The notes beneath the pieces are model-generated. The model made no database searches and had not been told where the DNA came from. It saw only the letters and a program-made list of their open reading frames with translations. A stretch of 37,788 nucleotides of DNA from Candidatus Melainabacteria bacterium GWF2_37_15 (GTDB lineage: Bacteria; Cyanobacteriota; Vampirovibrionia; Gastranaerophilales; UBA9971): assembly GCA_001784565.1 (NCBI GenBank), contig MFRL01000015.1, positions 1-37,788 of the forward strand, in the 5' to 3' direction. The translations under genes were made by a program, and so were the position numbers. Positions 11,660 through 37,788 of this stretch are shown here, piece after piece (position 1 is the first letter of the stretch; every line of letters starts with the position of its first letter).

Positions 11660-11692
11660 TTAACAGGGCCGAGCTTCGCTCGGCCCTGTTAA
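11660..11692. terminator. 15-bp hairpin between convergent genes
   Basis: TTAACAGGGCCGAGC at 11660-11674 pairs exactly with 11678-11692 around a TTC loop. It is followed by AAC and four A on the plus strand and preceded by a run of T, so it can act for the minus-strand pfp gene and perhaps for both directions. Confidence 0.75.
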
Positions 11693-11705
11693 AACTAAAA
11701 ATCAG

Positions 11706-15141: not shown

Positions 15142-15650
15142 TCAAACAGCCCTTCAATCCTGCGTATAGTTATCCTTTTTTCTTTTAAATCCACGTCAGG
15201 CACGATTTCCCTGTTGAATGGCACCATGGTTTCCTTGTTACTTTCATCCTTAATGAATAACGTATCCTGCTCTTTGATGTTTACAACTCCTGAAATCTTG
15301 CCCAGAAGGTTTCCTTCTTCGTCGTAGGCATTTAAGCCGACCAGATCACTAATGTAAAATTCATCTTCCTGAAGATACTTTTCCAGCAGTTCTTTTGGGG
15401 CTTTTAAGAGGGAGCCTTTGAATTCTATAGCCTCATCCACTGAATTTATTTCTTTAAATTTAATCAATGCAAACTTTTTATGAAACCTCAGCTGTTCAAT
15501 AGTTAGTATGGTTGTTTGAGAACCTCTCACAGCAAATAATTCGGCAATTTCAGAAAAGATTTTTTCGTCACCTTCTGTAAAGCCGACTTTAACTTCGCCT
15601 TTTATGCCGTGAAAGTTTAGGATTTTCCCGATTGATAATAGATTTTGCAT
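15138..15650 (-). CDS. rimM: ribosome maturation factor RimM
   Basis: A 170-residue RimM homologue that assists assembly of the 30S subunit head by binding S19 near 16S rRNA. Seen: the N-terminal beta-barrel start LLSIGKILNFHGIKGEVKV, with the family's GxxGEV pattern, and the C-terminal PRC-barrel (EFYISDLVGLNAYDEEGNLLGKISGV, here quoted in parts: DLVGLNAYDEEG and LGKISGV). Length and order fit. It shares one base with the ylqD stop and four with trmD, indicating a tight operon. Confidence 0.94.
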   Translation of the reverse strand: MQNLLSIGKILNFHGIKGEVKVGFTEGDEKIFSEIAELFAVRGSQTTILTIEQLRFHKKFALIKFKEINSVDEAIEFKGSLLKAPKELLEKYLQEDEFYISDLVGLNAYDEEGNLLGKISGVVNIKEQDTLFIKDESNKETMVPFNREIVPDVDLKEKRITIRRIEGLFE

Positions 15651-16087
15651 TAATCTATTATATCCTGAATAACCCCGTCTTTTACAAGTATTTCAGCTTG
15701 TTTGAATTTTTCGTATAAATTCTCACCGGGCTTGAGTTCTACATAGTTTTCAAGGCTTCCCGTCACTATCACGTTGTTTAAGGAGAGGTGGTCAATGTTA
15801 TCCTTTTGAAACTGTAATTCCTGCTTTAACTCACCCATTTGCTGAAGCCGGTGCAGGATTTCTTCAATTGCCTGCTGCGTCTGGTCAGGATTGCCTTCTC
15901 CAAAATACTGAGACAGACCTCCGCCGGTTTGATCCTGTATTTGCTTGGTTTGTAGCTCAAGCTGCATTATCTGGTTATCTATAAGGCGGATTTCCTTGTT
16001 TAGTTCTTCTTTTGCCTGTTGTTTAAACCCGTCAGTTACTATTGTTTTTACCATGACAGGCCTTTTAACTTTAATGGATTTAATCAT
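15650..16087 (-). CDS. ylqD: YlqD-family protein
   Basis: A 145-residue protein matching the YlqD family, whose gene lies just upstream of rimM-trmD in Bacillus as well. Seen: a short N-terminal beta region (KVKRPVMVKTIVTDGFKQQ), a central Gln/Glu/Leu-rich coiled coil (residues about 25-95), and a C-terminal beta domain (IVTGSLENYVELKPGENLY) ending in VKDGVIQDIID. The molecular role is unknown; position suggests ribosome biogenesis or RNA modification. A GAGG ribosome-binding site lies eight bases before the ATG. It is the first gene of the operon; 84 bases of AT-rich DNA separate it from nadA. Confidence 0.82.
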   Translation of the reverse strand: MIKSIKVKRPVMVKTIVTDGFKQQAKEELNKEIRLIDNQIMQLELQTKQIQDQTGGGLSQYFGEGNPDQTQQAIEEILHRLQQMGELKQELQFQKDNIDHLSLNNVIVTGSLENYVELKPGENLYEKFKQAEILVKDGVIQDIID

Positions 16088-19437: not shown

Positions 19438-19450
19438 GTTCCATTATTTT

Positions 19451-19488
19451 ATTGTCATTGCGAGGGCTAAAGCCCTCGCAATGACAAT
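19451..19488. repeat. 18-bp palindrome of the GTCATTGCGAGG type
   Basis: ATTGTCATTGCGAGGGCT at 19451-19468 pairs exactly with 19471-19488 around AA. It lies between convergent genes, three bases before the stop codon of the minus-strand gene. The GTCATTGCGAG head resembles dispersed repeats I recall from many unrelated bacterial genomes. It may also terminate both transcripts. Confidence 0.75.
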
Positions 19489-19491
19489 ATT

Positions 19492-36105: not shown

Positions 36106-36450
36106 ATGGATCAAAATTTTGAATTAATCAGGAAATTTTTTGAAAATTTAAAGTGTTCCTGCTGTGATAATTTTTTTAGTAAAGACTCTGTTGAGCCTGT
36201 AAGAAAAGAAGAAAATAATGTGATAGTAAGGATAACCTGTCTGCATTGCGGGAAAAACCTTGGTTTGGCGATATTGGGGATAGATACAAAAGAATATAAA
36301 AACAGTTTAAAATTCCAGGAAGCTGATGATTTGCCGGAAGAAATGGATATGCCGTATGACCCGATAACTTACGAAGATGTAGCGCAGGCGCATAATTTTT
36401 TCAGCGAGCTGGGGGCGGACTGGATGAAGCATTTACCCGGGCGGGAATAG
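36106..36450 (+). CDS. small zinc-ribbon-like protein
   Basis: A 114-residue protein. The N-terminal half has CSCCD (residues 18-22) and, about 25 residues later, CLHCGKN, a likely four-Cys zinc ribbon. The C-terminal half is acidic (EADDLPEEMDMPYDPITYED) and ends in a helix (VAQAHNFFSELGADWMKHL). Zinc-ribbon proteins of this size often bind nucleic acid or partner proteins; none is identified. The ribosome-binding site is weak (GGA ten bases upstream). It is followed by a strong terminator of opposite orientation. Confidence 0.75.
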   Translation: MDQNFELIRKFFENLKCSCCDNFFSKDSVEPVRKEENNVIVRITCLHCGKNLGLAILGIDTKEYKNSLKFQEADDLPEEMDMPYDPITYEDVAQAHNFFSELGADWMKHLPGRE

Positions 36451-36700: not shown

Positions 36701-36729
36701 TTGAAGACACTTACAGCATAAAGTATAAT
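36701..36729 (+). promoter_or_regulatory. strong sigma-70-type promoter
   Basis: TTGAAG (36701-36706), 17-base spacer, perfect TATAAT (36724-36729). Best canonical promoter in the window. No coding frame follows for about 400 bases, so it probably drives a non-coding RNA. Confidence 0.65.
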
Positions 36730-36735
36730 AAGATT

Positions 36736-36966
36736 TACAAGGTCAAGTTTTGGTGGTTAGTTAGTCTACTAAGATTTGATTCTGTACAAACAAGATGATA
36801 GACGTCTATCTGACCGCAAAACAGGGGTAGAAGCCTGGAGGTCAGTATCTTTACAAAAATAACACAAACTTCCGGGCGACTACCCGATGTTTTGTAACAA
36901 ACAAAAACAAAATACTCGATAAACAGATAAGGCACCTTAGGCAAGTGCCTTATCTGTGCTGTTTAT
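36736..36966 (+). ncRNA. candidate structured non-coding RNA, about 230 nt
   Basis: This transcript is predicted from the promoter at 36701-36729 and a 13-bp terminator hairpin at 36923-36957. Within it, a long hairpin pairs AAAACA (36818-36823) and GGGTAG with CTACCC and TGTTTT (near 36880-36893), enclosing GCCTGGAGGT (36833-36842) paired with ACTTCCGGGC with two G-U pairs. A 5' domain offers GATAGACGTCTATC as a palindromic stem. ACTTCC-type pairs with G-U wobbles suggest RNA selection. No riboswitch, RNase P, tmRNA, SRP or 6S signature was recognised, although the long imperfect hairpin is 6S-like. Boundaries and function are inferred. Confidence 0.5.
36923..36957 (+). terminator. terminator-like hairpin of the structured RNA
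   Basis: ACAGATAAGGCAC (36923-36935) pairs exactly with GTGCCTTATCTGT (36945-36957) around nine bases. It is followed by GCTGTTTAT, a modest U-rich tail. Confidence 0.6.
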
Positions 36967-36985
36967 ACTTATTCTGTTTACACTG

Positions 36986-37008
36986 TAGGGCGGGATCCCT
37001 ACCCCGCC
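36986..37008. repeat. TAGGGCGGG-type palindromic repeat
   Basis: TAGGGCGGG head at 36986-36994, with GGCGGG (36989-36994) paired to CCCGCC (37003-37008). Same style as 14428 and 37549-37684. Confidence 0.65.
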
Positions 37009-37129
37009 TGTATAGCTTAAAACTTAAGGATTACAATTTGTAAATAATTTTATAAATTATTATTAACTTTTATTTTTAGGTGATTTTATACAGATGTAGT
37101 TAAAATTTTAAAGTAAAGGATACAAACAA

Positions 37130-37549
37130 ATGTTAAAAAATATATGTAACATTGGAATTACTACATCTTTTGGCCAGATATGCATAATGCCTATGTCAGA
37201 ATATGCAGGTAGTCCAAACATACATCAAAGAGGTAAAGAATTTGGAGAATTGGTAAAAGAGGCTGAAACCAAAACTAAGCAAAAACAAAATAAAGATTTT
37301 AAAGCTGTAGCTTGTATTCTTTCTCCTTCTTATCTTGCTTTTGTTTCTGGCAAAAAAGATATGAAATTCTATATGCAGGAATACAAAAAGGCTCAAATTA
37401 ATCCTAAAGACAATTCTAGTGAGCGTTATTTTATGGATAATTTCTTTGAACAAAACGCAACAAAATTAGATATAGACGTTAGCAAGCCTTTAAAAGACCA
37501 AATAGAAATAGTGGAAAAAGAAGACGGAGAACTCAGAGTAGTTAAATAG
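37130..37549 (+). CDS. orphan protein with N-terminal SFGQ tail
   Basis: A 139-residue protein with no domain I recognise. The N-terminus (MLKNICNIGITTSFGQICIM) carries the recurring Phe-Gly tail (F14-G15). The rest is Lys/Glu-rich and soluble, with a hydrophobic core segment AVACILSPSYLAFVSGKK and an acidic/basic C-terminal helix. AAAGGA lies nine bases before the ATG, supporting the start. The nearest upstream promoter is not clear; the AT-rich 37021-37129 has only weak boxes. The stop codon merges with the first of four palindromic repeats. Confidence 0.72.
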   Translation: MLKNICNIGITTSFGQICIMPMSEYAGSPNIHQRGKEFGELVKEAETKTKQKQNKDFKAVACILSPSYLAFVSGKKDMKFYMQEYKKAQINPKDNSSERYFMDNFFEQNATKLDIDVSKPLKDQIEIVEKEDGELRVVK

Positions 37550-37684
37550 GGCTTTAGCCCACTGGCAATTAATAATTAATATTTTGTAGGGTGCGCTATT
37601 GCGCACCGCTTAAATAAATTCCGTAGGGTACATTTATGCACCCTATTATTGCAGGTAGTTTAATAGGGTGGGCTTTAGCCCACC
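37549..37684. repeat. cluster of four TAGGG-type palindromes
   Basis: Four short palindromes, each headed by TAGGG: GGGCTTTAGCCC (37549-37560), GGTGCGC/GCGCACC (37590-37607), TAGGGT/ACCCTA (37624-37645, one mismatch) and GGTGGGCT/AGCCCACC (37667-37684). Starts are 34-43 bases apart. The remaining 37685-37788 shows no gene or other structure. Confidence 0.75.
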
Positions 37685-37788
37685 AATTATTGTAGCTTTG
37701 TAGGTTAGATATTTCTATCGATTTTTAAAATAAATTAGTATTTTAGTATTTTCCAAACGATGTTAGATAATTGCCTGGCAAGGCATTT

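Follow-up and report, generated by a model that had tools for sequence, protein, structure and literature searches.

A candidate small-RNA gene with three paralogues in the genome of Candidatus Melainabacteria bacterium GWF2_37_15

The window analysed here is the whole 37,788-nucleotide stretch of contig MFRL01000015.1 (G000:C15:1-37788) of Candidatus Melainabacteria bacterium GWF2_37_15, whose 2.27-Mb assembly comprises 102 contigs and is 91.9% complete. Near its end, between a 114-aa frame (36106-36450) and a 139-aa frame (37130-37549), lies a sigma-70-like promoter followed by a predicted RNA with hairpins P1 to P4 (Table 1). The first-pass annotation had seen no plausible gene within 400 bases downstream of this promoter, and the open reading frames listed for the window likewise include none of note from the promoter on until the 139-aa frame. 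ARAGORN found no tRNA or tmRNA.

Table 1. Predicted features of the RNA locus in the window.
Feature	Position	Strand	Basis
Sigma-70-like promoter, TTGAAG-17-TATAAT	36701..36729	+	motif scoring; block conserved in paralogues
Whole predicted transcript, one copy of four (others on G000:C64, C44 and C57)	36736..36966	+	fold, paralogy
P1, hairpin at the 5' terminus, 51 nt, its start coinciding with the expected +1	36736..36786	+	fold, shuffles
P2, small hairpin GATAG-ACGT-CTATC	36797..36810	+	fold; counterpart of different sequence in 3/3 paralogues
Alternative pairing UGACC ... GGUCA(G), predicted only before the P3 3' arm exists	36811..36845	+	pairing probabilities
Long hairpin P3, 5' arm	36816..36842	+	8/25 compared columns differ from paralogue consensus
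P3 apical loop, A-rich, 25 nt	36843..36867	+	columns 60-84 of alignment A3: 11/25 differ
P3 3' arm, ACUUCCGGGCGACUACCCGAUGUUUUGU, most conserved element	36868..36895	+	2/25 compared columns differ, plus two one-base indels
A-rich single-stranded linker	36896..36922	+	fold
P4, 3' hairpin of 13 perfect bp, probably a terminator or the 3' end	36923..36957	+	fold; lacks a clean U tract

The promoter is present as described earlier, but it is not the best canonical promoter in the window: it scores 10/12, and four other sites reach 11/12 among the 63 that score at least 10/12 with spacers of 15-19. The RNA region holds 8 promoter-like sites against 8.2 in shuffled sequences and is thus not enriched. 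By this measure, the promoter is ordinary for such A/T-rich DNA, and since its consensus score is unexceptional, the case for it rests on conservation instead.

The fold, in contrast to the promoter score, stands out against shuffled sequences. Positions 36736 to about 36957 fold at -82.1 kcal/mol (z -8.36), a value equalled by none of 200 shuffles, and the area ranks second among 654 sliding 230-nt segments on both strands, the first being a palindrome near 19450. Long perfect palindromes between convergent genes, at about 19450-19490 and 11660-11695, also rank among the window's strongest folds. The long imperfect hairpin proposed in the first-pass annotation, P3, was recovered with the arms GCAAAACA.GGGUAG..GCCUGGAGGU and ACUUCCGGGC..CUACCC..UGUUUUGU, as was the perfect 13-bp hairpin P4. 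A clean T run is absent after P4, and P4 received no terminator score on the + strand. P1 is absent from the first-pass annotation; in the window copy this hairpin alone has a z of -5.6, with none of 500 shuffles as good.

Searching the genome with the window copy returned that copy and three more, on contigs C64, C44 and C57; with the C64 copy as query, these four were again the only significant matches in this genome. The three paralogues (L002, L003 and L004, the last on C57) are mutually 89-91% identical over 314-328 columns. The window copy is more distant, with about 72% identity to the C64 copy, and the alignment of these two starts no earlier than the end of P2. Homology among the three paralogues sets in a little ahead of the -35 box and stops at P4, and the flanking frames differ at all four loci. 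Bounded in this way and set among differing neighbours, the unit appears to be a small gene cassette that was duplicated and relocated.

All four copies share one architecture: a 5' hairpin at the expected +1, a small hairpin, the long P3 and, after an A-rich linker, a 3' hairpin. The sequence of P1 differs between the window copy and the paralogues, and the hairpin starts about 7 nt past the -10 box in every copy. Folding P2-P3 of each copy individually gives the same P3 pairs in 4/4 (columns 34-40/105-111, 43-44/101-102, 50-55/89-94 and the top three pairs). For the full transcript, z is about -8.3 in the window copy, -4.8 in L003, -5.4 in L004 and -3.4 in L002; P1 alone beats its shuffles in L003 (z -3.4) and L004 (z -3.8) and fails to do so in L002 (z -1.0).

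Two kinds of repeat were observed around these loci. Some 5-30 bases upstream of the -35 box, L002, L003 and L004 carry an inverted repeat (TTAAGGAAATTTTCCTTAA in L003, AAGTAA...TTACTT in L002) that is kept with different sequence and is not obvious in the window copy; it may serve these paralogues as an operator. Intergenic DNA also contains recurring short palindromes of the types TAGGGTGGGCTTTAGCCCACC and GTAGGGTGCGCTATTGCGCACC, dispersed at 36985-37010 and 37580-37690 of the window and in the flanks of L003 and L004.

Among the three paralogues, substitutions affect 13/40 columns upstream of the -35 box, 2/36 from -35 to +1, and 10/196 from -35 to the end of P3 (p 5e-6 for the last against the upstream columns). 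Many changes between copies preserve pairs. Both P1 substitutions among the paralogues do so, and P4 of L004 has two fully compensatory pairs near its tip; pairing is lost at two P3 columns in L002 and, in some copies, at two columns of the outer P4 extension. A formal count in P2-P3 found 96.3% of cells paired against 94.6% in shuffles, a level reached by 45/500 shuffles, and two pairs changed on both sides, reached by 66/500; the count lies close to the shuffles, which is to be expected where most pairs are invariant among four sequences. When the partner is shifted by 1-3 columns, pairing falls to 29-52% from the original 96%, a kind of test that is biased towards any structure built from the sequences themselves. 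As the family was seen only in this genome, covariation is carried by just four related sequences, and the alignment supports the fold without amounting to proof by covariation.

Constraint is distributed unevenly along the RNA. Compared with the paralogue consensus, the window copy differs in 10/22 columns of P2 and, within P3, in the numbers of columns listed in Table 1, so that conservation is higher in the P3 3' arm than in P2 plus loop (p 0.001). The asymmetry between the two P3 arms (p 0.07) is only suggestive.

Besides the main fold, the first-pass annotation had proposed a second, competing one, in which CUGACC (36810-36815) pairs with GGUCAG (36840-36845). The two segments are indeed complementary, and five pairs, UGACC/GGUCA, are present in all four copies; the competition between two folds was only partly borne out. 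With both P3 arms present, in a core of 107-113 nt depending on the copy (113 nt for P2-P3 of the window copy), the probability of this helix is about 0, and we rejected it as an equilibrium competitor. Its coexistence with intact P3 as a pseudoknot was likewise rejected, which we infer from the geometry. In nascent RNA that lacks the 3' arm, the predicted probability is 0.45-0.48 for the window copy and 0.68-0.999 for the paralogues, and the helix could arise as an intermediate during folding. Outside the main fold, no more than two bases are informative about selection for it.

A lack of conservation in close relatives had been named earlier as grounds for rejecting the RNA, and these grounds are only half present: nothing was found in other species, but conservation was seen between the paralogues. 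The P3 core pattern occurs in 1/383 genomes of the order, namely this one, and in none of the viral contigs, phages and plasmids searched; among 84,980 species genomes it matched one Dehalococcoidia record, which the covariance model did not support and which we took for chance. DNA of the window copy matched 4/60 genomes including its own, the other three matches being 30-50 nt long. The covariance model of the family, R1, found in 117 genomes the own one and one weak match, read by eye as lying inside a gyrB-like gene, and thus no credible foreign member. With the limit relaxed to E 5, R1 matched 6 of the 10 family genomes, the own one included; the best foreign match (25.2 bits) was rejected as an A/T-rich terminator-like palindrome, matched also on the opposite strand. 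The foreign R1 loci inspected leave out three weaker ones (<=16.2 bits, one of 17.5).

DNA of the L004 copy matched 11/383 genomes of the order including its own, with the ten foreign matches at query positions 128-210. These cover mostly the A-rich linker and the RBS-like stretch AAGGAGCAAATAAT, and the P3 core string was absent around the middle of 9/10 of these loci scanned. In other genomes of the order, stretches similar to the AAGGAGCAAATAAT of the L004 linker (G000:C57) occur immediately ahead of start codons. By eye, the region adjoining the 114-aa gene shows no counterpart in 8/9 relatives, the ninth being cut by a contig end and left out. As far as this evidence goes, the family appears specific to the genus or species; the genomes searched included no other species of the same genus, and since the searches scored only part of the candidates per genome, diverged relatives may escape them.

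The suggestion that the RNA is structured and belongs to no known class stood up, and is strengthened by the three paralogues. In the window, no Rfam family attains its gathering score, and the weak matches around the RNA lie far below threshold even at E up to 10. SraL (RF01408) matches two copies weakly on the same strand (20.4 and 21.2 bits against a threshold of 39 bits, E 0.3-0.5); the window copy shows only a weaker match, on the other strand. Yfr2 RNAs carry the conserved loop motif GGAAACA, which is absent in 4/4 copies, and Yfr2-type Rfam models gave no match at gathering score nor at E up to 10; by both tests the RNA is not a Yfr2 member.

In behaviour, Yfr2 would nevertheless be the closest analogue, alongside sibling sRNAs in general. 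Passages of one Yfr2 paper describe sRNA genes in several copies whose loci lack conserved synteny, with four copies in one Prochlorococcus (PMC6778093), and the RNA described here likewise has several copies at unconserved loci (four, with different neighbours). In the relevant part of another, conserved single-stranded motifs and lack of synteny are read as evidence against a leader role, and Yfr2a is given as about 80 nt long (PMC2662882), compared with about 230 nt here. Moreover, Yfr2 is widespread in cyanobacteria, whereas this RNA was seen in one genome. Sibling sRNAs such as CsrB, OmrA/B and the RyhB copies are described, in an excerpt of PMC6262261, as paralogous genes that arise by duplication and then relocate. 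The likeness lies in paralogous non-coding genes with their own predicted promoter and 3' hairpin; no sequence relation to CsrB, OmrA/B or RyhB was found.

A diverged 6S RNA, mimicking an open promoter and binding RNA polymerase, was a tempting identity, and the first-pass annotation had noted the resemblance. The RNA is similar in length to 6S (RF00013) and heavily structured, and the Rfam 6S model, found in 9/9 family relatives (8 over the cut-off), had no match in this genome or in the window. In 7/9 of the relatives 6S lies directly upstream of tsaE; no 6S lies immediately before tsaE in this genome (L075, G000:C68, tsaE 15426-15815, - strand). However, a lineage-specific 6S model (R2), built from the nine relatives, located a separate 6S further upstream, at G000:C68:16666-16788 on the - strand, ending at the contig edge, with 84.7 bits. 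On the four copies this model gave at most 13.2 bits, and on the terminal hairpin alone. 6S RNA has the shape of a rod with a large central bubble, unlike the separate hairpins of all four copies. The identity failed on these grounds, and its probability is practically nil. The case also carries a caution, as the genome seemed to lack 6S until the lineage-specific model found one at a contig end.

The remaining alternatives differ in what they ask of the locus. A cis-acting leader or riboswitch, in line with the cis-regulatory RNA suggested in the first-pass annotation, would serve the 139-aa frame that begins at 37130 and, in the other copies, whichever genes lie downstream, and a same-strand frame does follow each copy at some distance. 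However, the downstream proteins are unrelated where compared (2 comparisons), three of them have no Pfam match (window 37130-37549, L018:7521-7766 and L017:7028-7447), and the L016 copy precedes a 786-aa frame read by eye as ribonucleotide reductase. In addition, P4, where paralogue homology ends, closes the RNA about 170 nt ahead of 37130. Because the downstream genes differ among the copies, we consider cis-regulation very unlikely. A small protein encoded on one strand is highly improbable: short frames exist, the longest of 69 aa on the minus strand, but those that are longest within the transcripts vary from copy to copy in position, length and sequence, and a conserved AUG in CCCGAUG yields peptides with different ends. 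Together with one-base indels in P1 and P3, these discordant frames argue against a conserved peptide. If the locus were no gene but a repeat of the MITE or REP-like palindrome kind that is never transcribed, this would account for four dispersed copies in DNA whose intergenic parts, where read, commonly contain palindromic repeats. Such a repeat is quite unlikely, given that there are only four copies, at 90% and 72% identity, that no terminal inverted repeats were noticed by eye, that constraint tracks promoter and stems, and that P1 lies at the expected +1 in all four. More weight, though still doubtful, goes to an RNA that does not base-pair and instead acts on a protein as its decoy or scaffold, in the way of CsrB with CsrA; several copies, heavy structure and a conserved arm would all suit it, and CsrB copies are known as siblings (part of PMC6262261). 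Against it, a single GGA and no ANGGA motif occur in the window copy, and the paralogues have 3-4 GGA, counts too low for a CsrB-like array; proteins of another kind may still be bound.

Taken together, the locus is very probably a non-coding RNA gene of some sort, whose structure, paralogy, boundaries and lack of coding come directly out of the computations. With moderate confidence, based on sequence comparison and predicted folds, we favour a stand-alone small-RNA gene some 220-230 nt long that belongs to a set of four siblings, is restricted to its lineage and acts in trans. Hfq-dependent sRNAs would lead one to expect Hfq in the genome. Here the Hfq family (PF17209) was recognised in 0/1, with the control positive in 5/14, the genome being 92% complete and a very divergent Hfq being able to escape such a search. 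As no Hfq was recognised, the sRNA probably works without it.

For such a small RNA, we propose that each copy would give a separate transcript from its own promoter, with the 5' hairpin that starts at +1 protecting the transcript end and P4 terminating it. The active part may be the P3 3' arm (CCGGGC...ACCCGAUGUUUUGU), with the 5' arm as its cover, because the 3' arm is nearly fixed while its partner strand drifts, pairing being kept through G-U or compensatory changes. The 3' arm would base-pair with a target RNA, its partner in trans; capture by the target would free the 5' arm, which could then close as UGACC/GGUCA. A more specific version is unlikely, though it would join these elements: a new lineage-specific, multi-copy RNA class working as an Hfq-free co-transcriptional switch, in which UGACC/GGUCA forms first, the near-invariant 3' arm invades it, and the helix re-forms upon target capture.

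We found no relevant study of small or non-coding RNAs for Melainabacteria or Gastranaerophilales. If the small RNA proposed here is transcribed, it represents an uncatalogued sRNA family in a lineage for which no sRNA study was found under either name. Four loci, one nearly invariant arm and a predicted start and end provide ready probes for it. The family would show that an sRNA network can grow by duplication in a genome where no Hfq is recognisable.
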